From positions 1-26,460 of IMG/VR virus record IMGVR_UViG_3300034198_000718: a stretch of 26,460 bases of DNA. The stretch is one strand, 5' to 3'. The position numbers and the translations under genes were made by a program. Position 1 is the stretch's first letter; the number at the start of each line of letters is the position of its first letter. Positions 2,727 through 16,100 of the stretch are shown piece by piece. The stretch comes from a virus. A model generated the notes under the pieces. It did not search any database. It was not told the DNA's origin and saw only the letters and a list, made by a program, of their open reading frames with translations.

Positions 2727-2862
2727 CGGCGGTAAAGGAAGCACACACCGTCCACGCAGCATTGCCGATGTTGAATGGGCCAACCGTTGGAACTCCATCT
2801 TTGGCAGAGACAACGTAGACATCTATAAACAAGAAAGAAACAAGAATGGATTGGATATATGA
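2713..2862 (+). CDS. Small conserved phage protein with GKGS-RP motif (49 aa)
   Basis: The N-terminal part reads GGKGSTHRPRSIADVE, followed by a Trp-containing stretch ending in RWNSIFG. From memory this combination (GKGS, then Arg-Pro, an acidic stretch, and RW..IFG) recurs in short proteins of many phages, usually near replication genes and without assigned function. There is no membrane segment. The start could be either of two Met codons, at 2713 or 2719. The last 17 bases overlap the start of the DNA polymerase in another frame, so translation of the two is probably coupled. Confidence 0.6.
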   Translation: MTMSDGGKGSTHRPRSIADVEWANRWNSIFGRDNVDIYKQERNKNGLDI

Positions 2863-4915
2863 CCTTGAAACTTACAAGAACATATTCACATTCACAGCGA
2901 TAGACGTTGACGGTAACAACCCTGTTACCTTTGAGATGTCCACTCGCAAGAATGAAGCTGCTCAGATGTTTGCGTTTCTTGACACATGTAAGAAGAAGAA
3001 GAGCCACCTCATCGGCTTCAACAACTTAGGCTTTGACTACCCCATCGTTCATGACTTGTTATCTGTGCGTGAAAAGGCGTTGACGGTATCGGGCAAGGCT
3101 GTTGCCGTTCGTGCTTACAAGAAGGCACAGGCCATCATCACCAACCAAGACAAGTTTGTTGATGTAGTCTATGACCGTGAGCAGTATGTAAAACAGATTG
3201 ACTTGTATAAGATACATCACTTCGACAACAAGGCACGAGCTACGTCATTGAAGATGATTGAATTTAATATGAAGTCTGACACCATCGAAGATCTTCCCTT
3301 CCCTGTTGGCACTGATCTAACAGAAGATCAAATGGATGTGCTCATTAACTACAACATGCATGATGTGGTGAAGACGCTCGACTTCTACAAAGAGTCTCTG
3401 CATCTAATCAACTTCCGTGCTGAGTTGTCTAAGAAGTACAAGCGCAACTTCCTCAACCACAACGACACCAAGATTGGCAAAGACTACTTCATCATGCAGC
3501 TTGAAGAGAACATGCCGGGTTGTTGCTACAAGGTTGGTAACAAGGGTGAGCGTAAGATAAATCAAACAAAGCGTGATGTCATTCACATCAAAGATTGTTT
3601 GTTCAACTACTACGACTTCCAACACCCTGCGTTTCAGGCTGTGCTTGATTGGTTCAAACAACAAAGCATCACCGAAACCAAAGGTGTATTCTCTGCCATC
3701 CCTGAGGACAAGCTAGGCAAGGTTGCGATGTTTGCCAACATGATAACGCTGCGTAAGAAGTTTGTCGGTGTTCCAACTGACGAAGACATTGCAGAGTTCA
3801 AAGCTGAGTATCCGCTTGGGTGGGTGGAGCAGGTGGAGTTGAAGGCTAAGAAGAAAGGTGTTGCACAGTACAGTCATTGGAAACATTGGAACGAAGCATC
3901 AACCTTGAACGTGAACATCAACGGTTTCCAATTCGACTTTGGCACTGGTGGCATTCATGGATCTGTCGAGAGTAAGATCATAACGTCTGATGATGATTAC
4001 ATGATTATTGATGCTGATGTGGCTTCTATGTATCCCAACATTGCAATTGCCAATCGTGTCTACCCTAAGCATTTGGGTGAGAAGTTTTGTGACATCTACC
4101 AAGATGTTTACAACCAACGTAAGAGCTACCCCAAGGGCAGTGCTGAGAACGCCATGCTGAAGCTTGCGTTGAACGGGGTATACGGAGATAGCAACAACCA
4201 GTTTAGCCCCTTCTATGACCCGCAATACACCATGTCCATCACCATCAACGGACAGCTTAGCCTGTGCCTGTTGGCTGAGAAGCTGCTGCACATAGACAAT
4301 CTGTCGATTGTTCAAGTGAACACCGATGGTATTACGGTGAAGCTGCCTCGTGATAAGCTTGTCGAATATGAAACCATCTGTGCCGCATGGCAGAAGCAGG
4401 TAGGTCTTGAGCTGGAGTATGCCTATTACAGCAAGATGATTATCCGTGATGTGAATAATTACATTGCGCTTTACGCTAACGGTAAGGTGAAGCGTAAGGG
4501 TGCGTATCAGTACGAAGACTTAGGCTGGCATCAGGACCAAGGTGGGTTAGTGATTCCCAAGGCGGCTGAATCTTATATGCTGCATGGAATTGACATCGAT
4601 ACCTACATCAAGGGTCATCAAAACAACTATGACTTCTTGTTGCGTACTAAAGTACCACGTAGCAGTAGGTTGGTAATGGTGATGAGTGACGGTAGGGAAG
4701 TGCTACAGCAAAACATCTGTCGCTATTACGCATCAACAGCTGGTGCAGATCTGATAAAGATTATGCCTCCGCTGGTTGTTGATGGTGAAGAGCGTAGGAT
4801 GGATGTAGAATCTGGCTGGAAGACTTGGGCGTGTAACAACATCGAAGACTTTAGCCGTGATGATTTAGATTATTCTTTCTATACGGCTGCGGCAAAGAAA
4901 CTTGTTGTAGAATAA
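2846..4915 (+). CDS. Family B DNA polymerase with 3'-5' exonuclease domain
   Basis: This is the replicative polymerase (689 aa). The proofreading domain shows Exo I (DLET, Asp6 and Glu8), Exo II (FNNLGFD, residues 58-64) and Exo III (YNMHD, Tyr169 and Asp173). The polymerase domain shows family B motif A DVASMYP (Asp391), motif B KLALNGVYG (Lys439, Asn443, Tyr446, Gly447) and a motif C read as VNTDGI (Asp494). A GTGGIHGS stretch at 366-373 sits where family B enzymes have the YxGG-like link between exonuclease and polymerase. Motif C is unusual: the common DTDS is NTDG here, keeping one Asp. It shares an operon with the T7-like helicase and SSB, although T7 itself uses a family A enzyme. No TPR insertion or terminal-protein gene is evident, so protein priming is not indicated. 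Confidence 0.9.
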   Translation: MDWIYDLETYKNIFTFTAIDVDGNNPVTFEMSTRKNEAAQMFAFLDTCKKKKSHLIGFNNLGFDYPIVHDLLSVREKALTVSGKAVAVRAYKKAQAIITNQDKFVDVVYDREQYVKQIDLYKIHHFDNKARATSLKMIEFNMKSDTIEDLPFPVGTDLTEDQMDVLINYNMHDVVKTLDFYKESLHLINFRAELSKKYKRNFLNHNDTKIGKDYFIMQLEENMPGCCYKVGNKGERKINQTKRDVIHIKDCLFNYYDFQHPAFQAVLDWFKQQSITETKGVFSAIPEDKLGKVAMFANMITLRKKFVGVPTDEDIAEFKAEYPLGWVEQVELKAKKKGVAQYSHWKHWNEASTLNVNINGFQFDFGTGGIHGSVESKIITSDDDYMIIDADVASMYPNIAIANRVYPKHLGEKFCDIYQDVYNQRKSYPKGSAENAMLKLALNGVYGDSNNQFSPFYDPQYTMSITINGQLSLCLLAEKLLHIDNLSIVQVNTDGITVKLPRDKLVEYETICAAWQKQVGLELEYAYYSKMIIRDVNNYIALYANGKVKRKGAYQYEDLGWHQDQGGLVIPKAAESYMLHGIDIDTYIKGHQNNYDFLLRTKVPRSSRLVMVMSDGREVLQQNICRYYASTAGADLIKIMPPLVVDGEERRMDVESGWKTWACNNIEDFSRDDLDYSFYTAAAKKLVVE

Positions 4916-5424: not shown

Positions 5425-5589
5425 ATGCAAATTAAACTCGACCTTCATATTGATTTGGTTAATGTAGTGATGACTGCTCTTGGCAAACTGCCCTATGAGC
5501 AGGTTGCTCAGGTCATTAACATCATTCAGCAGCAAGCTGCCCCACAAGTTGAAGCTGCTCAGGCTGATGCTCAGATTCCTAAAGAGTAA
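5425..5589 (+). CDS. Hypothetical small protein with Gln/Ala-rich tail (54 aa)
   Basis: TAGGAAA at 5414-5420 precedes the ATG, and the TAA stop overlaps the exonuclease start (TAATG). The first 36 residues look like one or two amphipathic helices (MQIKLDLHID, then a helix ending in INIIQQQ). The rest is low complexity (Ala, Gln, Val, Glu). There is no known family. A small helical partner in the replication operon is plausible. The coupled stop/start supports translation. Confidence 0.6.
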   Translation: MQIKLDLHIDLVNVVMTALGKLPYEQVAQVINIIQQQAAPQVEAAQADAQIPKE

Positions 5590-6290
5590 TGATCGCTCTT
5601 CTGGACAGCGACTTGATCGCTTACAGAATCTCCTTCGCTTGCAAGGATGAGTCAGAGACACATGCTAAGTATTCGCTTAACAACTACGTCAATGACATCC
5701 TTGTAAGGGGAGTTGATAAAGCATACACCGATTGCTTTGTTGATCAATGGAAACTCTACCTTACAGGTAGTAATAACTTCCGTCTCAACATAGCAAAGAC
5801 GGTGGTGTATAAAGGCAATCGCATCGCCCCTAAGCCTCAACATCTGCCAGCATTACGCAAGCATTTAGTTGATGAATGGGGCGCTGTCATTGTTGAAGGC
5901 ATTGAAGCTGATGATGCTGTAGCTACAGATGCTACATGGCTTGGGTATAACAACTCAGTCATTGCATCAGTAGATAAAGATCTTGATCAGATACCGGGCT
6001 GGCACTACAACTTTGTTAAAGACATTGCCTACCACATCACACCAGAAGAAGGCACGTATAGGTTCTACAAACAGATCCTTACTGGCGACTCTGCAGATAA
6101 CATCATTGGTTTGAAAGGTATTGGTCCTGTCAAAGCCGATAAGATATTAGATGAGTGTGACACTGAGGTAAAGCTTTACAACGCATGTGTGCAAGCATAT
6201 GAGGGTAATGAAGAACGAGTGCTTGAAAATGCTAGACTATTATGGCTTCGTAGATACGAAGGTCAAATGTGGGAACCACCAAAGGAATGA
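5589..6290 (+). CDS. 5'-3' exonuclease, FEN/PIN type
   Basis: This nuclease (233 aa) should remove RNA primers and degrade DNA from 5' ends, as T7 gp6 does. Acidic residues that bind the metals are visible at LLDSD (Asp6, Asp8), EADD (106-109) and VDKDLD (129-133). The helix-three-turn-helix DNA-binding motif is clear at GDSADNIIGLKGIGPVKA (166-183). Length is usual for small phage FEN proteins. It follows the 54-residue gene with a TAATG overlap, and the next start is two bases after its stop. The family assignment is firm. The exact polarity and substrate are inferred from the family. Confidence 0.9.
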   Translation: MIALLDSDLIAYRISFACKDESETHAKYSLNNYVNDILVRGVDKAYTDCFVDQWKLYLTGSNNFRLNIAKTVVYKGNRIAPKPQHLPALRKHLVDEWGAVIVEGIEADDAVATDATWLGYNNSVIASVDKDLDQIPGWHYNFVKDIAYHITPEEGTYRFYKQILTGDSADNIIGLKGIGPVKADKILDECDTEVKLYNACVQAYEGNEERVLENARLLWLRRYEGQMWEPPKE

Positions 6291-6291
6291 C

Positions 6292-6642
6292 ATGACTAAA
6301 GAACTTCACAAAGAACTACAGCCAAACGATGTGGCTGTCATTCTTCGACCACTAATTGGTGAAGATGGTAAATGGGTGGGGGAGTACGAGGTGCTGGTAA
6401 CGGGCTTTGGTCCTGTCACCATGACCCGTGATCAGATGGATGACCTGATTGGAATGGGTGTGCTGCTTGCATCAGTGGTTCCTCTGATGGGGAAAGACGA
6501 GAAGGTTGCTGAAATGATTATGGATCATTGCAATGAGTTCTATGGTGACATTGGCACATTCACATATGATACAGACTTCAATAGTTTTGAAGACTCTGAT
6601 GTATTAAGTGTCAACACAAAGGTTGTTGGAGGAATGCAATGA
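6292..6642 (+). CDS. Hypothetical protein (116 aa)
   Basis: The start at 6292 follows an AAGGAATGA that serves as ribosome-binding site and exonuclease stop. A longer in-frame start at 6187 would lie deep inside the exonuclease and is rejected. The product begins with charged helix, then has beta-like segments (VAVILRPLIG, GEYEVLVTGFG), a helical middle and an acidic C-terminus. There is no signal peptide; a mildly hydrophobic stretch at about residues 55-67 is too weak to call a membrane segment. Its layout resembles small phage proteins of unknown function found beside nucleotide-metabolism genes. It overlaps the next gene by four bases. Confidence 0.7.
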   Translation: MTKELHKELQPNDVAVILRPLIGEDGKWVGEYEVLVTGFGPVTMTRDQMDDLIGMGVLLASVVPLMGKDEKVAEMIMDHCNEFYGDIGTFTYDTDFNSFEDSDVLSVNTKVVGGMQ

Positions 6643-7061
6643 AAATTCCTAAAGTTTGTACCACCTGTTTTTATGGTGAGATTGAAACAACTAATAAGCC
6701 CTGCATCGCTTGCAATGGCTTTAATAAATGGGTAGGTGTTGACGCTTTCAAAGAACAGGAAAAAACAAAAGTTGTTGAAGGTGTGAAGTTTGATCAAGGT
6801 AAATCTCAGTGGAGCCTGATGCCTTGGAAAGCTTTGTCACAGGTGGTAGATGTGCTAACCTATGGTGCTAAGAAGTATTCTCCAGACAACTGGAAGAGGG
6901 TTCCTAATGCCCGTCAACGTTACATTGATGCTGGCTTTCGACACATAACAGCGTATGCTGCTGGTGAGAAGAACGATGCTGAGACGGGAAAGAATCATTT
7001 GGCTCATGCAATTTGTTGCTTCTTATACTTAATCGCTTTTGACTTGGAGGAAAAGCAATGA
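6639..7061 (+). CDS. dATP/dGTP diphosphohydrolase-like protein (DUF5664/MazZ type) with zinc ribbon
   Basis: The C-terminal 95 residues match the DUF5664 pattern. They read GVKFDQGKSQWSLMPW, then LTYGAKKYSPDNW, then FRHITAYAAGE, and an acidic run ETGKNHLAHA followed by a hydrophobic helix. This is an all-alpha, MazG-related fold that in MazZ converts dGTP (and dATP) to the monophosphate. The N-terminal 30 residues add a zinc ribbon: Cys7, Cys10, Cys22 and Cys25. The gene is coupled to both neighbours by four-base overlaps. MazZ is known from phages with aminoadenine DNA, but no purZ or datZ is seen here, so general dNTP-pool control is the safer reading. The family call is good, while the precise substrate is unknown. 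Confidence 0.75.
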   Translation: MKIPKVCTTCFYGEIETTNKPCIACNGFNKWVGVDAFKEQEKTKVVEGVKFDQGKSQWSLMPWKALSQVVDVLTYGAKKYSPDNWKRVPNARQRYIDAGFRHITAYAAGEKNDAETGKNHLAHAICCFLYLIAFDLEEKQ

Positions 7062-7240
7062 CCCCTGTAACTCTTAACCTATCAATCACAGCCTACTTTG
7101 ATGCCGATGAAATACCTGCCATTTATTCCAACGAAGATTTCTTTACCGATGCCGTTAAGGAACATATTGGTTACGCTATGGATCGTCTTGACGCTAGAGA
7201 CGTTGTGTTTAATAGCATTGATGTGGACGGTCTGACATGA
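7058..7240 (+). CDS. Hypothetical small acidic protein (60 aa)
   Basis: A GGAGG at 7046-7050 precedes an ATG that overlaps the previous stop. The product is acidic. It has a beta-like start (TPVTLNLSITAYFDAD), a helix and a final strand ending in VFNSIDVDGLT. It contains no Cys and no membrane helix. No family is recognised. The TGA stop overlaps the next ATG. The ribosome-binding site and coupling make it a likely real gene. Confidence 0.6.
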   Translation: MTPVTLNLSITAYFDADEIPAIYSNEDFFTDAVKEHIGYAMDRLDARDVVFNSIDVDGLT

Positions 7241-7443
7241 GCTTAGAATTATCTGTGTCTCTTCGACCAGCATCTAACGGTTTTGTCATTCACTATTGCG
7301 AGGTGGTGAATGGCTTAGAAGTTAATGCCGAGTTCGTTGCTCTAGATCTTGAAGAAGCTCTAGACATTATTCGTGATTGCTATGATCAACCAGAAGGTCA
7401 CGACATGTCCAACATCCTAGATGAAACAATCCCCAAAGGTTAG
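7237..7443 (+). CDS. Hypothetical protein (68 aa)
   Basis: The ATG overlaps the previous stop as ATGA. The product has a beta-like N-terminal half (SLELSVSLRPASNGFVIHY, then VNAEFVALD) and an acidic helix (EEALDIIRDCYD). It is a small alpha/beta protein without recognisable motifs. Its last 23 bases overlap the HNH gene in a different frame. Function unknown. Confidence 0.6.
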   Translation: MSLELSVSLRPASNGFVIHYCEVVNGLEVNAEFVALDLEEALDIIRDCYDQPEGHDMSNILDETIPKG

Positions 7444-7807
7444 AAATGGTGGTGAGTGGACAGATGCACGATTCAGAAGCTTTGTAACTTCTGCTCTTCG
7501 TGCAGCGTCTAGGCGTTGGCCCCCTAAGTACACAGCTCTAAAGGCTGCGTTCGTGGGCAAGAAGGTGAATGTAAAGAGTGGCAAGATGGCAATGCATTAC
7601 AAGTGCGCTAGCTGCAAGAAACACTTCGTTGCTGCTGACGTACAGGTCGATCATATTGAACCCGTTGTAGACCCTGTGAAGGGCTTCCAAACATGGGACA
7701 TATTCATAGACCGCATCTTCTGCGAGATAGAGAATTTGCAGGTGATGTGTAAGGCATGTCACAAAATCAAAACAGATCAAGAGAAAGAAGAAAGGAAAAA
7801 GAAATGA
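7421..7807 (+). CDS. HNH endonuclease
   Basis: The product (128 aa) has a zinc-supported HNH fold. Cys62 and Cys65 form the first pair, VDHIEP (Asp77, His78) is the first catalytic part, and ENLQVMCKACHKIKTDQE (104-121) supplies Asn, Cys110, Cys113 and His114. A basic N-terminus (EWTDARFRSFVTSALRAASRR) probably contacts DNA. It is not inserted into another gene and overlaps neighbours at both ends, so it looks like a regular operon member. Free-standing HNH enzymes of this kind occur in many phages, acting in DNA processing or as homing endonucleases. The start has no clear Shine-Dalgarno and is the first ATG in frame. Confidence 0.85.
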   Translation: MKQSPKVRNGGEWTDARFRSFVTSALRAASRRWPPKYTALKAAFVGKKVNVKSGKMAMHYKCASCKKHFVAADVQVDHIEPVVDPVKGFQTWDIFIDRIFCEIENLQVMCKACHKIKTDQEKEERKKK

Positions 7808-8697
7808 GCTTCATTAAATATCAACACGTTGAACGCTTTGGTACATCTGAAGTCGAAGGCATTGAAGTTGGTACATGTTATATCTTTCCTAAGTTAGATG
7901 GTACTAACGGTAGTGTCTGGTGGGAAGCTGGCATTGGGCTGCGTTGTGGTAGTCGCAATCGTGAACTAGAGTTGGACAATGACAACGCTGGCTTCATGAA
8001 TGCAATGACTAAAGACGAGGCAGTTATGTTATTCATGCACAGCAATCAAGACTTAATACTGTATGGTGAATGGCTTATACCTCACAGCCTTAAGACATAT
8101 GCTGATGACGCATGGCGCAAGTTCTATGTGTTTGACGTATACGACACCGCCAAAGAACGACTGCTGAGCTTTGATGAATATGCCAAACCACTTGAAGCTG
8201 CTGGTATTAACTACCTCGTACCCATTGCCATGATTAAGAATGGCAACATCGACTACTTCACAGAATGCTTGAACAAGAATGTGTTCTTAATTAAGGATGG
8301 TGAAGGTGTTGGTGAAGGCATCGTCATCAAGAACTACGACTACAAGAACAAATATGGTCGCCAGACTTGGGCAAAGATGGTGACGAATGAATTCAAAGAA
8401 AAGCATCACAAAGAAATGGGAGCACCATTGATTGGATGTGAGATTGTTGAAGAGAAGATTGTTTCTAAGTTTGTGACACAGGCTATGGTGGATAAGGTGG
8501 TTGCAAAGATTGTGTTGACCAATGATGGTTGGCACAGCAAGTGTATTCCTCAACTCATCAACACTGTGTTCTATGACCTGATCAAAGAAGAAAGTTGGGA
8601 GTTTGTGAAAGCATTCAAGAACCCAACCATTAATTACAAAACCCTGTCGCACTATTGCACAGCCAAAGTTAAAGAACTACGAAAGGAATTGTTCTAA
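7804..8697 (+). CDS. RNA ligase (Rnl2-like nucleotidyltransferase)
   Basis: The start at 7804 follows AAAGGAAAAAG. An in-frame extension to 7756 is only a basic readthrough of the HNH frame and is rejected. The 297-residue product shows the ligase motifs in order. Motif I is KLDG (Lys30 is the adenylated lysine), followed by an early Arg-Cys-Gly-Ser-Arg stretch, YGEW (87-90), FYVFDVYD (107-114), EGIVIKN (171-177, motif IV) and WAKMV (189-193, motif V with Lys191). The helical C-terminal domain after residue 200 would bind RNA. It seals 3'-OH and 5'-phosphate ends and may repair tRNAs cut by host anticodon nucleases. No polynucleotide kinase partner is visible in this window. Motifs make the family call strong. 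Confidence 0.88.
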   Translation: MSFIKYQHVERFGTSEVEGIEVGTCYIFPKLDGTNGSVWWEAGIGLRCGSRNRELELDNDNAGFMNAMTKDEAVMLFMHSNQDLILYGEWLIPHSLKTYADDAWRKFYVFDVYDTAKERLLSFDEYAKPLEAAGINYLVPIAMIKNGNIDYFTECLNKNVFLIKDGEGVGEGIVIKNYDYKNKYGRQTWAKMVTNEFKEKHHKEMGAPLIGCEIVEEKIVSKFVTQAMVDKVVAKIVLTNDGWHSKCIPQLINTVFYDLIKEESWEFVKAFKNPTINYKTLSHYCTAKVKELRKELF

Positions 8698-9050
8698 TGA
8701 TTACGATTGCCAGCTTTGAAGAGAACGAAGACGGTAGCGCCAACTGCACCATGATAATGAGTGATGAAGATCGCACTGCCTTGCTCAACTATGCCATTCT
8801 TCACATGCTTAAGGATGCTGTGCAGGAAGGGACTGATGCTAAACCTGATGCTGCTGCTCCTAATTCAGATAGCATTGTTATCAGCAGTGTTAAAGAACAA
8901 CTTGTGCTCAGCTACCTACACTCCGAAGATCAATACGAAGAAAACTATCTTCCTAATCTTCGACAAGCCTATAAGACTGTGCTGAGACACTACATGGCTT
9001 CGACAGAAGCTGATAAATATATTAAACAAGTTGAGGCTATACATGAGTAA
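8697..9050 (+). CDS. Hypothetical protein (117 aa)
   Basis: The ATG shares a base with the ligase stop (TAATG). The product starts with a short beta hairpin (MITIASFEENEDGSANCTMIMSDE style), then a helix rich in Leu, an acidic low-complexity linker (about residues 43-58) and a helical C-terminal half. I recall similar starts in small phage proteins without a function. It has no zinc or membrane motif. Its end overlaps the thymidylate synthase gene by eight bases. Confidence 0.7.
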   Translation: MITIASFEENEDGSANCTMIMSDEDRTALLNYAILHMLKDAVQEGTDAKPDAAAPNSDSIVISSVKEQLVLSYLHSEDQYEENYLPNLRQAYKTVLRHYMASTEADKYIKQVEAIHE

Positions 9051-9663
9051 AGTTAAATGTATCTGGTCAACACCCAATGGAGAAGAACTCATTGCTTACA
9101 TGGCACGAGTATCGAATCCAGAGAATCAAGACAACAAAGAGACAGCCCCTAAGCTTCTTAAGTATTTGATAAGCAATCAACATTGGAGTCCTTTTGAAAT
9201 GGTGAACGTGTGCATGGAGATTGAAACCACACGAGACATTGCCCGTCAAATATTACGACACCGAAGCTTTAGCTTTCAAGAATTGAGCCAGCGTTATGCT
9301 GTTGTTCACGACTATGACTTCTCTGAAGTACGCTTGCAAGACAATAAGAACCGTCAAAACTCTATTGAGGTGCAAGACCGTGAGCTACAGCGATTCTGGC
9401 AGGAGTCACAAGCCACTGTCATTTGCACTGCTATCGGTCACTATGAGGCTGCACTGGCTAATGGCATTGCCAAAGAGGTGGCACGTAAGCTGTTGCCTGA
9501 GGGCATGATGATGTCACGCATGTACATGAACGGTACGTTGCGTAGCTGGCTGCACTACCTGTCTGTTCGCCGTGATGTTGCTACACAAAAAGAACATCGT
9601 GATGTTGCAGATCAGTGTGGAGTTGTGATAGAGTCGCTCTTCCCCTCACTCTTTAAGGAATGA
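9043..9663 (+). CDS. thyX: Flavin-dependent thymidylate synthase
   Basis: This enzyme methylates dUMP to dTMP using methylenetetrahydrofolate, FAD and NADPH. The hallmark motif RHRSFSFQELSQRY is present at residues 72-85. The C-terminal helices carry the expected ARKLLPEGM and LRSWLHYL stretches that build the active site in the tetramer. The length (206 aa) is usual. The start at 9043 is preferred, since a 9031 start would be TTG. It overlaps the gene before by eight bases and is followed after one base by a MazG-like gene. That neighbour could dispose of unwanted nucleotides while ThyX makes dTMP. Assignment is firm. Confidence 0.95.
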   Translation: MSKVKCIWSTPNGEELIAYMARVSNPENQDNKETAPKLLKYLISNQHWSPFEMVNVCMEIETTRDIARQILRHRSFSFQELSQRYAVVHDYDFSEVRLQDNKNRQNSIEVQDRELQRFWQESQATVICTAIGHYEAALANGIAKEVARKLLPEGMMMSRMYMNGTLRSWLHYLSVRRDVATQKEHRDVADQCGVVIESLFPSLFKE

Positions 9664-9664
9664 A

Positions 9665-9979
9665 ATGCAAGTAGACTTTTATCAATCCCGTGCAATGACC
9701 TATCGATTAGAAACAGCCAATGAGATTTATGCCTTGCTAAATCTTGGTGGTGAAATTGGTGAGGTGCTAAGCAACGTTGCCAAGTTTATTCGTGATGGTG
9801 GTAGTATTAAGGACTACAACGAACGCATGAAGAAGGAACTAGGTGATGTGATGTGGATGGTGGCAGCTGTTGCCAAAGACCATAATATGTCTTTGTCAGA
9901 AATTTGTACTCATAATCTAGACAAACTTGAGAGTCGTAAGATTAGGGATGTTATTCAGGGGTCAGGCGACAATCGATAA
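9665..9979 (+). CDS. MazG-type nucleotide pyrophosphohydrolase
   Basis: The product (104 aa) has the four-acid metal site of the MazG/dUTPase-like all-alpha fold: Glu30 and Glu33 (GGEIGE) plus Glu58 and Asp61 (KELGDVMW). It should hydrolyse NTPs or dNTPs to monophosphates and pyrophosphate. Length fits single-domain phage MazG proteins. It ends the first transcription unit, 29 bases before a strong terminator. In phages such enzymes may clean the dNTP pool or lower ppGpp; which of these applies here cannot be read from the sequence. Confidence 0.85.
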   Translation: MQVDFYQSRAMTYRLETANEIYALLNLGGEIGEVLSNVAKFIRDGGSIKDYNERMKKELGDVMWMVAAVAKDHNMSLSEICTHNLDKLESRKIRDVIQGSGDNR

Positions 9980-10008
9980 AACATGTATAACTGCCCTTCC
10001 CAATTTAT

Positions 10009-10032
10009 GGAGAGCTTCGGCTCTCCTTTTTT
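10009..10032 (+). terminator. Rho-independent terminator after the nucleotide module
   Basis: GGAGAGC at 10009-10015, a TTCG tetraloop and GCTCTCC at 10020-10026 form a perfect seven-base-pair stem, followed by six T. The UUCG loop closed by C-G is exceptionally stable. It separates the replication operon from the ribonucleotide reductase gene, which begins 19 bases later. Confidence 0.9.
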
Positions 10033-10050: not shown

Positions 10051-11970
10051 ATGAGCAATGAATTTGCAACCCCTTGGTCTAGTGTAGGCTATTTGACTTA
10101 TAAAAGAACTTATGCACGGCGCTTGAACGAAGATGACATCAACAGTCCAACAGAAGAATTCACAGACACTGTAGAACGAGTCATCAAAGCCTGCGAAGAA
10201 CAGCTTAAATGCGGCTTTACAGACGTTGAAAACGAACGCCTAAGGGGTTACCTGCTTGGTCTAAAAGGAAGCGTTGCAGGACGTTTCTGGTGGCAATTGG
10301 GGACAGATACAGTGGACAACCTCGGCATGGCATCGCTTCAAAACTGTGCGTTCCGTGTAGTGGATAAGCCTGTTGAGCCTTTCACATGGGCAATGGACAT
10401 GTTGATGCTTGGTTCTGGTGTAGGTTACAACATTCAGAAAGAGAACGTCAACAAGTTGCCTCCTGTCAATCAGAATTTCAAATGTCCTACCCGTGTTAGC
10501 GATAGTGGAGCAGACTTCATTGTTCCCGACAGCCGTGAAGGATGGGTTGCCTTGCTTGGTAAAACATTGAAGGCTGCTTTCTTGGCGCATAGTTCTGGCA
10601 AACAGACGTTTACCTATTCGACACAGCTGATTCGTTCTAAGGGTGCGCCCATCAAAGGCTTTGGTGGCACTGCATCTGGTCCAGAAGATTTGGTGTGGGG
10701 AATTGAACAGATCTCTAAGGTGTTGGAGAAGAGGGCAGGCAAGCAGATGCGCCCTATCGATTGCCTTGATGTGTTGAACATCATTGGTGCTGTTGTTGTT
10801 GCTGGTAACGTGCGCCGTTCCGCACAAATTGCTATTGGAGATGCAGACGATGTTGAATATTTACTTGCTAAACGATGGGACTTGGGAAATATCCCAAGCT
10901 GGAGAGCCATGTCCAACAACAGCGTGGTGTGCCATGACATTGGAGATTTGCACGACTTCTTTTGGGATGGTTACGAAGGGAAAGGTGAACCATACGGCCT
11001 CATCAATCTTAGACTTTCTAGAAAAATTGGACGCCTCGGAGAAACCCAATACCCTGACCCAAAAGTTCAGGGATATAATCCTTGCGCTGAACAAAGCTTA
11101 GCCGATGGTGAAACCTGCTGCTTGGCTGAAGTGTTCCTGCCCAACATCACAAGCAAAGAAGAACTGCTGGATGTTGCAACCTTGCTCTATCGCATCAACA
11201 AGCATTCTTTGGCCTTGCCTTGCCATCAGAAAGTAACCGAAGCCATTGTGCATGAGAACATGCGTATGGGTATTGGCATCACTGGTGTATTGCAATGTAC
11301 TGAGGAACAGAAGTCTTGGTTGAACGAAACCTACGGTAAGCTTCGTGAGTACGACAATGAGTACAGCACCGCTCATGGTTTCAATCGTTCGATTAAACTT
11401 ACAACAATCAAGCCTTCCGGTACGCTGTCGTTGCTGCCCGGTGTAACGCCCGGATGCCACCCTGCGTATGCCCGGTTCATGATTAGACGTATCCGTATTA
11501 GTTCCAACCATGCGCTGGTGCAGGTCTGTAAAGATCACGGCTACCCTGTGGAATACCAACTAAACTTCGACGGCACTGAGGACCATAGCACTGTGGTGGT
11601 AAGCTTTCCTTTCCGTCATCCAGAGCATGCTGTGCTGGCTAAGGACATGACTGCCTTGTCTCAATTGGAAACTGTGAAATGGTTGCAGGAAGTGTGGAGT
11701 GACAACAGCGTTAGCTGCACTGTCTACTACCGCAAAGAGGAGTTGCCAGAGATCAAGAAGTATTTGAAGAAGCACTACAAGAACAACCACAAGAGCTTGT
11801 CGTTCCTGTTGCATAGCGATCATGGGTTTAAGCAAGCACCACTTGAAGAAATCACTGAAGAGCAATATAAAGATATGGTTGTTAGCACTCGCATCATCAC
11901 TGCAGTTGCTGACGGAAACATCGGATTGGATGACAGCGAATGTGCAAGTGGCGCTTGCCCAATTCGGTAA
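10051..11970 (+). CDS. Adenosylcobalamin-dependent class II ribonucleotide reductase
   Basis: The enzyme (639 aa) reduces ribonucleotides to deoxyribonucleotides with a cobalamin radical and needs no oxygen. It matches the monomeric RtpR-like group. The catalytic loop NPCAEQSL gives Cys345 (radical) and Glu347. Cys356, 11 residues after Cys345, pairs with Cys99 (LQNC) as the redox couple, the same spacing as Cys408 and Cys419 in the Lactobacillus leichmannii enzyme. The C-terminal ECASGACP supplies the swinging pair Cys631 and Cys636. It is about 100 residues shorter than the Lactobacillus protein. The start lacks a strong Shine-Dalgarno. It sits alone behind a terminator, so read-through or a promoter in the 70-base gap must drive it. 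It depends on host vitamin B12. Confidence 0.93.
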   Translation: MSNEFATPWSSVGYLTYKRTYARRLNEDDINSPTEEFTDTVERVIKACEEQLKCGFTDVENERLRGYLLGLKGSVAGRFWWQLGTDTVDNLGMASLQNCAFRVVDKPVEPFTWAMDMLMLGSGVGYNIQKENVNKLPPVNQNFKCPTRVSDSGADFIVPDSREGWVALLGKTLKAAFLAHSSGKQTFTYSTQLIRSKGAPIKGFGGTASGPEDLVWGIEQISKVLEKRAGKQMRPIDCLDVLNIIGAVVVAGNVRRSAQIAIGDADDVEYLLAKRWDLGNIPSWRAMSNNSVVCHDIGDLHDFFWDGYEGKGEPYGLINLRLSRKIGRLGETQYPDPKVQGYNPCAEQSLADGETCCLAEVFLPNITSKEELLDVATLLYRINKHSLALPCHQKVTEAIVHENMRMGIGITGVLQCTEEQKSWLNETYGKLREYDNEYSTAHGFNRSIKLTTIKPSGTLSLLPGVTPGCHPAYARFMIRRIRISSNHALVQVCKDHGYPVEYQLNFDGTEDHSTVVVSFPFRHPEHAVLAKDMTALSQLETVKWLQEVWSDNSVSCTVYYRKEELPEIKKYLKKHYKNNHKSLSFLLHSDHGFKQAPLEEITEEQYKDMVVSTRIITAVADGNIGLDDSECASGACPIR

Positions 11971-13182: not shown

Positions 13183-16100
13183 TTAGCGTCTAGAAGCTAG
13201 GCCACCTGATGCAAACTTCTCAGAAAACTTTCTTATTTCTTCTGTTGGCTTAGTCGGATTAGTAAACTGTTCTTTGCGTAGGTCATCCAGCTTTGACATG
13301 AGTTGCTTAATTGTGTCAGCTTTTTGTGTAGCACCAGCCTGCTCTAATGCTGTGTGTACATTAGTTAAAAAAGAATTGGTATTCAACGTTTGTCCAAATG
13401 GTCCACCAATAACAATGTTGTTTGCAAACTCTTCCAAAAACTTTTGATAGCGTTGACCAATACCTGTCTTCGTAGACGTGGTAGATCCACGTTCAGCAGC
13501 ATTGTTAAGAATCTGTCGAATGCCATCATACGCTTTATATGCAAGCCGCTTATTGATTGATGGGTTTTCCGACAAAGGAACAGACTTTAAACTGTTTCCA
13601 ATATCAAACAACTGTTTCTTCAATTCTTCTTCTTTAGTCACTCGCTTAGAAATATTTTCATACTTAGCACCAACTTCTTTTTCAGCAGAATAGATTTTAA
13701 GTTTGTCAGCTTCTGTGAAAACATCCTCTGTTTCTTTAAACGTACCAGTACGTGGCAATGACACTGGTCGAACAATTGTTGATGATCCGTTTAATGACCG
13801 AGCAGCAACATTTAAATTCTTTTGATCATATGCAAGAGGTGTCATATTAATTCTACTGAACAAATAATTTGCGTAGGGAAGCTCTGTATAAACAAACTTG
13901 TTTACATTCTTTCCACCAAAGCTACCTGTTTCATAGTTCATGTTTACGTCTTTGGTAAATGATACCCCGCCATATTCAAGTTCCATGTGGAATCTCCTAT
14001 GTGTTTGCGGGTCTTGAAAACCATTAGCCTTTAAAAGCTTAACGTTTTCTTCTGGTGAATCAGAGCCATGAAAGAGTTTGATTGGTGGAACATCACTATA
14101 TTTCAAACGCAAAGCATCAAGTTTGGCCTGATAGTCTTGTGCCATAGTTGTAAACTCAGCAACGTCCTTCTTCTTTCTTGGATCAAACTCACGTCCGGTT
14201 TTAATTCGGAAGTCTCCCTGTGCTACAGCAGCAACCTGTTCGGCATCTGGCAGGGCAGCAATGTCCTTGTTGGCTAGGATGTCGGGAAACACATCTGTAC
14301 GATGTTGGCGAATTGCAGCCAGTGCTTTCTTCCTGTCGCCAAGATCATTTAATACTTTAACATCCAAATCACCAGCCAACACCTTTGCATCAGAAAGTCG
14401 AGGTTCAACCAAGGGCTTAGCAACAGGAGCGTTGGGATCGATGGGGTTGCCATCAATGTCATACTCAACTTCCTTCACCACCAATTCATCTTCGGGTGCG
14501 GCCTTAGGTGTTGTAGATTTTGTAGTTGTTGGAGTAGGAGCAGCCTCTGCTGTTGGTTCAATATCAGCAGCCAACTTGTTAAGACTGTTTTGATAGTCTT
14601 CTGGATAAGCTTTCTTATACACATCAAGTTGATACTGACTACCCATCTTACTCTTCAAAACCTTCTCAGCTTCTTGAAGTTGATAGGTTGAAAAAGCAGC
14701 AGGCGTTTTCGTCACAGCACTTGCCACCTCTTTATTACCGGAAACAGCAGGTGCAGGTTCTGTGAACAAGTCAAACTTAGAAGGCTCTACAACCCTTGTT
14801 TCACCTTCGATGGGGCCAAGGTATGGCTCGTTAGATTTAACCACCTTGCTGGTCATTCTAGGGGCTTCTGTGGGGGATAGCACAGGAGTTGGTGTAGGAG
14901 TTGGCAAAGCCTTGGTTGTTTGTTCAGCAACAGGTAATGCTTTCTTAGCAATAACTTGTTCCATTTCTTGCAACAATTCACTGGCACTTTTTGTGGCAGC
15001 TTTACCAACCACACGACCAGCAATGTCAGACAACAAACCACCACCTGCAAATCCGGGTTGCTTGCGGATCACAGCAGCATATGCCAAAGCTGCTTGATAT
15101 TCTTTAGTATCTTCTAGGTTTTTACCAGTTTGCTGTTGATACATTTCGGCTGTTGCACGTTTAACTTCAGGAGCAAGTGCTGAATATTTAACAGCAAAGA
15201 TACGAGCACCTTCGCCTTTGTTAAATGCTTCAACCATAGAATTGTTAGTTGCAATTTCTTTAGCATTCGTTTGTGCAAACGCCAAAGTATTTTGCAAAGC
15301 AATCTTTTTAACATCCTGTGAAGAAGATTTATACCAATCAGTATTTTTTACAGTGTCGTATATTTGTAGTAATAACGGGGCCATCACATTACGTGCAGCA
15401 GCATCAACAACTTTGTCGCCTGTGGAAGTAAACACTTTGTTGGAGGGAATGTGCAGCGTTACCAGTTCTTGTTCAAGTTCTGTAGGTGCTCCCTTAACTG
15501 TGATACCTGTAAACATCTTCAAAGGACCAGCATCGTTGAATGCGGCAGTCTCTCGTGTAGCAGGTTGGTACACTGGCAAGCCTTGCTTTGCAACAGGGAT
15601 ACGCTTTTGCAATTGATTTGCAGCAGACGATGTAAACCCTTCCTGACCAGCAGGGATTTGATAGGCATCACGAGGCAGGGTTTCATCACGGTCAATAGCA
15701 CCAACGATGTCAGAGATTTGCTGCACTGGAACCAAGGCTCTACCTAAGTATTCACCCATCCATTCACCAAAGAATGTAGAGATCTTTTGATCAGCACTAC
15801 CTTCACCAGTTTGCATGTTCGATTGTGCTTCGGCAAACTTATCACCTAACCACGAGTACGTACCAGCAGGGGCTTTAAAGCCTGTCATGGCTTCTAAGAA
15901 TTCCTTAGTCTTGAACTCGTCTGTACGACCCTTGTTAAACTTGACAAGATAGTCACCCATTGCTAGGAATGGAGCGACAGGAAACAAAGCTCTACCGTCA
16001 ACCAAGCTACCATCAGGATTCTTAATGTCATACCAATTGGTGTCTTGATGTTCTTCACGGTATTTGTAAGCAGCATAAATTGCAGCTGTACCAACCATAC

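Follow-up and report, generated by a model that had tools for sequence, protein, structure and literature searches.

Introduction

The DUF5664 domain (Pfam PF18909, dGTP_diPhyd_N) has been described in phages whose DNA carries 2-aminoadenine (Z) in place of adenine (PMC12884076). PF18909 was named after the N-terminal region of the dATP/dGTP diphosphohydrolase of Acinetobacter phage SH-Ab 15497 (SHab15497_00040) (PMC10434257), a protein in which this domain is fused to PF04447 and whose gene adjoins purZ and a gene for a PF12917 protein. Arthrobacter phage Wayne, a PurZ0 phage, encodes a protein (gp51, ALY10775.1) with PF18909 alone. This enzyme cleaves dATP, dUTP and dGTP to the deoxynucleoside monophosphates (dNMPs), with kcat values of 0.48, 0.22 and 0.053 per second, respectively, and Wayne-type proteins were grouped beside those of canonical Arthrobacter phages (PMC12884076). 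The MazZ protein of cyanophage S-2L (PDB 7ody) is a deoxynucleoside triphosphate (dNTP) pyrophosphohydrolase specific for (d)GTP, and its gene is located between datZ and purZ (PMC8342488). A cyanophage MazG pyrophosphohydrolase prefers dGTP and dCTP (PMC6850273). In Edwardsiella phage KF-1, PF18909 is encoded beside a thymidylate synthase and forms part of a fusion with a dCMP deaminase. Here we describe a DUF5664 protein of 140 amino acids encoded at positions 6639 to 7061 (plus strand, as for the other genes and elements of the window located below) of IMG/VR virus record IMGVR_UViG_3300034198_000718. This record, itself partial, consists of 26,460 bases, was analyzed whole and is referred to as the window. 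The DUF5664 gene occurs in a chain of genes with thyX and a compact mazG, and a class II ribonucleotide reductase (RNR) gene is present just downstream. We somewhat favor the view that this cluster serves the dNTP pool of a phage whose DNA is canonical and that DUF5664 is tied to thymidylate supply.

Results

Domain searches with Pfam, PHROGs and NCBIfam covered ten proteins of the window. PF18909 matched residues 48 to 139 of the 140-residue protein at 108.7 bits (cut-off, 27; E value, 1.5e-31), and a GGAGG sequence is present six bases upstream of the ATG of this gene. Residues G76, K79, Y80, W85, A98, R101, H102, D113 and H120 are invariant across 17 aligned DUF5664 proteins, including those of Wayne and SH-Ab 15497. 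The thyX gene (9043 to 9663), encoding a flavin adenine dinucleotide-dependent thymidylate synthase, was detected with TIGR02170 (148.7 bits; cut-off, 87.9). It is followed by a gene (9665 to 9979) for a compact MazG of 104 amino acids with a C-terminal GSGDNR, which matched PF03819 (35.8 bits; cut-off, 22) and whose E30xxE33...E58xxD61 residues are invariant in an alignment of 11 sequences. Like the cyanophage protein, this is a phage-encoded MazG, although the compact type is known here from sequence alone. These matches bore out the coordinates given for the DUF5664 and MazG genes, and the families given for all three genes, in an original prediction made from the letters of the window. From the exonuclease gene (starting at 5589) through mazG, neighboring genes abut or overlap, which supports the presence of a single transcription unit.

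For comparison, 44 DUF5664 loci (designated by L numbers) were collected with exact peptide seeds, KKYSPDNW among them; hence, the invariance of this peptide is partly due to ascertainment. In a later profile search, 38 loci repeated records found earlier, and L055 to L082 were left out of the motif and terminator scans. Contig ends cut the N termini of the L017 and L050 proteins, and L023 was wrongly extracted in the locus-by-locus gene comparison, in which the identities of one query, gp6294, were disregarded because its reading frame was wrong. ThyX was detected in 18 of 37 DUF5664 records (17 over the cut-off) and ThyA in one, while MazG was found in 17 of the 37. For 13 of these 17 the MazG match was over the cut-off, and ThyX was also present in 11 of those 13. 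The combination of DUF5664, MazG and ThyX is not due to chance and is also not rare.

Other arrangements link this domain to thymidylate synthesis. In phages KF-1, Amaethon and PH1, a dCMP deaminase is fused to DUF5664 (at least 80% of this fusion was covered in 8 of 1112 matching records), and the fusion gene adjoins an annotated thymidylate synthase gene and a small gene annotated as a pyrophosphohydrolase or as hypothetical. The KF-1 protein differs from that of the window in that the deaminase domain replaces an N-terminal cysteine ribbon and in that the neighboring synthase is ThyA rather than ThyX. In L039, the dut, DUF5664 and thyX genes overlap. A PF00692 dUTPase was detected in 3 of 37 DUF5664 records and a dCMP deaminase in 2 of 34; neither PF00692 nor the PF00383 deaminase could be detected in the window or MW202701, a complete relative, while the all-alpha dUTPase family, PF08761, was not searched for across the records. 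In the literature library searched, DUF5664 was named in one paper, and no paper joined dGTP pyrophosphohydrolase, phage and thymidylate synthase.

The RNR gene (10051 to 11970) encodes a class II enzyme like the monomeric triphosphate reductase (RTPR), the best PDB match being the triphosphate reductase 1l1l (E value, 2.5e-79). The protein scored under the TIGR02505 equivalog cut-off for RTPR (327.7 versus 340.05 bits), a narrow miss given that the RNRs of two relatives, L002 and L021, passed this cut-off. A triphosphate reductase would yield dUTP rather than dUDP; hence, an RTPR-like RNR would leave ThyX dependent on a dUTP pyrophosphohydrolase for its dUMP. The RNR present at this site varies, with that of L021 being 77% identical to the window protein and that of L008, which is RTPR-like, being only 28% identical. 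In L025 the RNR gene (13249 to 15929) is apparently split, and in L017 it appears to be preceded by an inserted open reading frame (ORF; about 1880 to 2340); these disruptions are perhaps due to mobile elements.

The interval between mazG and the RNR gene contains a TATAAC...CC box and, after it, an intrinsic terminator (together, 9985 to 10026). The terminator hairpin, GGAGAGC-TTCG-GCTCTCC (10009 to 10026), is followed by six T residues. A script run over 63 loci plus the window detected this box and terminator upstream of the RNR gene in the window and 17 loci (L002, L007 to L009, L011 to L017, L021, L023 to L026 and L035). The stems vary in sequence between loci yet remain paired. The element was also present in loci with a different type of RNR or with no detected mazG; in L025 the terminator follows an extra ORF and not mazG, and in L017 an ORF separates the terminator from the RNR gene. 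A scan of viral contigs detected 28 stretches with the box and terminator, four of which (L096, L099, L112 and L117, all from this phage group) had the element before an RNR gene as detected by tblastn. No Rfam family matched the element at the gathering score. The idea that the element has a wider occurrence was not retained. As the terminator between mazG and the RNR gene is conserved, the RNR gene is not plainly part of the DUF5664-MazG transcription unit. The abutting genes agree with the prediction of one unit containing DUF5664, thyX and mazG; the RNR gene, which the prediction placed just downstream, is set behind the terminator.

The DUF5664 protein had been described as MazZ-like, a name that proved to be misapplied. 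S-2L MazZ belongs to PF04447 and S-2L is without PF18909, while the window protein matched PF18909 and not PF04447 in the Pfam scan. The SH-Ab 15497 protein contains both domains and the Wayne protein PF18909 alone. The DUF5664 gene is, moreover, not situated between datZ and purZ, its neighbors on both sides being other genes. A structural model of the DUF5664 core (mean predicted local distance difference test score, 84.8) matched other PF18909 models in BFVD. Nothing significant was detected for this model in the PDB with Foldseek; 7ody was listed first with an E value of 3.6, which amounts only to a hint. A VIA comparison of the model, bearing on a MazG-HisE fold, gave a Z score of 3.8 and a root mean square deviation of 4.2 over 65 aligned residues. 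No match was obtained when the profile of the DUF5664 alignment was compared with that of the MazG alignment, and sequence searches for a solved DUF5664 relative found none. A MazG fold for DUF5664 was not supported, as phmmer, profile search, hhalign, Foldseek and VIA gave no significant match.

The original prediction had also suggested a possible link between the cluster and a modified base, while noting that purZ and datZ were not in the window. The latter point was confirmed by the absence of PF00709 and PF12917 from the window; the former was left without support. A search of 37 DUF5664 records, two of which are relatives of 54.8 kb (MW202701, complete) and 54.6 kb, detected no PurZ or PurA protein. 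DatZ-like PF12917 proteins were absent from all 17 non-Z records, with two of three Z controls being positive (S-2L and SH-Ab 15497 but not Wayne). In MW202701, no base modification family was present among 18 Pfam families (38 proteins scanned; 75 annotated features), the PHROGs results for this phage covering 25 of 61 families. Searches of 50,697 phage records with one query each (E value, 1e-5) detected DUF5664 relatives in 731 records and PurZ relatives in 214, indicating that at least 517 DUF5664 records are without a PurZ relative at that sensitivity. A PolA-type polymerase is present in all known Z phages except S-2L (PMC8342488). The polymerase of the window (2846 to 4915) is family B-like and not PolA or DpoZ (phrog_1252; E value, 9.6e-190), with matches to records annotated as family B, KY981271 and MG592459. 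A link to Z-DNA is, therefore, not supported, the PurZ, DatZ and family searches in these records and in the window, a genome fragment, having provided nothing in its favor.

The N-terminal ribbon of the DUF5664 protein (codons 7 to 25; 6657 to 6713), a putative zinc ribbon, comprises two CxxC knuckles, C7xxC10...PC22xxC25. All four cysteines are retained in L007, L008 and L009 and are missing from L002, L010 to L013 and L016, the closest sisters, whose gene order is similar. In the core tree, the window and L007 to L009 formed a ribbon clade (support, 98/90) nested within ribbon-less relatives; a wider ten-row group around this clade had a support of 82/91, with the bootstrap not settled, and the rows for L026, L036, L039 and L040 were shortened by trimming. 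Pairwise comparisons involving the window indicated that amino acid changes accumulate in the N terminus at about threefold the rate of the core (pN of 0.34 to 0.42 versus 0.12), with retention of the four cysteines. The surrounding region (6289 to 7288), which takes in DUF5664 together with the ORF preceding it and the small ORFs that follow, is also fast changing, exhibiting 58 to 83% identity to L009 per 100 bases as compared to 80 to 98% at 5589 to 6288 and 7289 to 7788.

A motif scan detected the ribbon ahead of DUF5664 in 3 of 44 loci (two of the 44 being cut N-terminally). Ten matches were obtained overall, five of them in DUF5664 proteins (the window, L005 and L007 to L009), compared with 0 to 2 in shuffled sequence. 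Among 15 published DUF5664 proteins, chosen partly because their matches extend into the N terminus, L005 and L006 have a similar ribbon, while L003, L054, L089 and L091 have other cysteine groups. The Wayne protein also has a cysteine-containing N terminus, which differs in its pattern (HxxxC...PCSC), and is placed on a long branch. Hence, the ribbon is unusual among the nearest relatives, as had been proposed, but N-terminal cysteine knuckles recur in distant DUF5664 proteins. When the first 46 to 67 residues of four proteins were searched against Pfam, no family exceeded its cut-off (the best, DUF2387, had an E value of 0.0047 for L007), and the ribbon was not assigned to a known domain; against PHROGs, the only small E value was for phrog_19852, of unknown function (E value, 1.4e-4; L005). 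The DUF5664 protein exhibited weak deaminase matches (E value, 0.17; phrog_2369, 3.4e-5), and the PCxxC spacing of the ribbon resembles that of KF-1. Derivation of the ribbon from a decayed deaminase site was considered unproven because other cysteine groups recur in DUF5664 proteins. The blocks of the ribbon model were of moderate confidence (69 to 79). The ribbon is an N-terminal addition that changes rapidly and is confined to one clade; it probably serves stability or docking rather than catalysis.

The left arm of the window encodes a T7-like primase-helicase, the family B-like polymerase, a 5′-3′ exonuclease, DUF5664, an HNH nuclease, an RNA ligase, ThyX, MazG and the class II RNR. The RNA ligase gene (7804 to 8697) is present in the window and L010 to L017 and was not detected in L007, L008 or L009. 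The polymerase has NTDG at the motif C site, which is usually DTDS. Its best annotated matches include records of Limnohabitans and Curvibacter phages, a sequence-based hint of a freshwater Burkholderiales host.

Discussion

From the observed genes, families, gene order and terminator, we infer the following substrates and flow. DUF5664 would convert some dNTPs to dNMPs by removal of pyrophosphate, its most likely substrates being dUTP and/or dATP and, to a lesser extent, dGTP. Since ThyX is encoded in the same chain, dUMP would be the useful product, serving dTMP synthesis, and the same reaction would keep dUTP out of DNA. MazG may trim other dNTPs, and the RNR would refill the pool. The active editing of the dNTP pool envisaged in the original prediction is thus plausible and fits one assayed stand-alone homologue, that of Wayne (PMC12884076), while the modified-base component was not retained.

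Several observations weigh against a tie to thymidylate supply. Searches for a thymidylate synthase were negative for 18 of 37 DUF5664 records, some of which are fragments, and ThyX was within 3 kb in 12 of the 17 loci that contain it, as compared to 8.2 expected with uniform placement (p of ∼0.04), a weak result obtained with related, short loci that we do not regard as statistical proof. In L039 a dUTPase is encoded in addition to DUF5664, which therefore does not simply stand in for a dUTPase. MazG itself, or the host, may supply the dUTP pyrophosphohydrolase. The RNR of L012, a sister with a related DUF5664, scored best against a diphosphate reductase model, NrdJ_Z (under the cut-off), indicating that there is no fixed RNR-DUF5664 pairing. 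Finally, the highest kcat of the Wayne enzyme is on dATP (PMC12884076). This would suit an enzyme that mainly removes dATP and some dGTP, matching pool composition or relieving RNR feedback with no special tie to ThyX. Such a role, for which the dUTPase of L039 and the complete phages W02, W04 and W05, which have DUF5664 and in which neither ThyX nor ThyA was found, can also be cited, is a real but lesser possibility; the deaminase fusions beside thymidylate synthase and the overlap of dut, DUF5664 and thyX point instead at dUMP.

A function of DUF5664 in feeding a pathway that replaces adenine with 2-aminoadenine, or produces another modified base, appears very improbable. The occurrence of DUF5664 domains in Z phages (PMC12884076), with PF18909 in SH-Ab 15497 and Wayne, prompts the idea, and about half of the genome of the window phage is absent from the record, as estimated from the 54.8-kb relative. 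Set against this are the absence of PurZ from all 37 records and of DatZ-like proteins from all 17, the family B-like polymerase, the lack of a modification family among the scanned proteins of MW202701 and the many DUF5664 records without a PurZ relative. It is also doubtful that the ribbon confers a new role on DUF5664, for example by attaching it to ThyX, RNR or nucleic acid; the partner recruitment raised in the original prediction is a guess. Retention of four cysteines in the window and L007 to L009 amid rapid N-terminal change, and the similar knuckles of L005 and L006, speak for such a role, but the ribbon is missing in the nearest sisters with similar gene order and was modeled with only moderate confidence.

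The thymidylate-linked dNTP-pool module thus remains our preferred explanation for a cluster that is ordinary, similar sets being present in many ordinary phages. A more speculative extension, to which we attach rather little weight, is that DUF5664 is an additional, widespread type of phage dUTP-to-dUMP enzyme that supports thymidylate synthesis in phages with canonical DNA and was later reused by Z phages, and that the clade-specific ribbon tethers it to ThyX or RNR, channelling dUMP. Neither DUF5664 nor the database name dATP/dGTP diphosphohydrolase should be taken as a sign of 2-aminoadenine DNA. If the dUMP role is true, a common phage family would gain a testable job outside Z-DNA.

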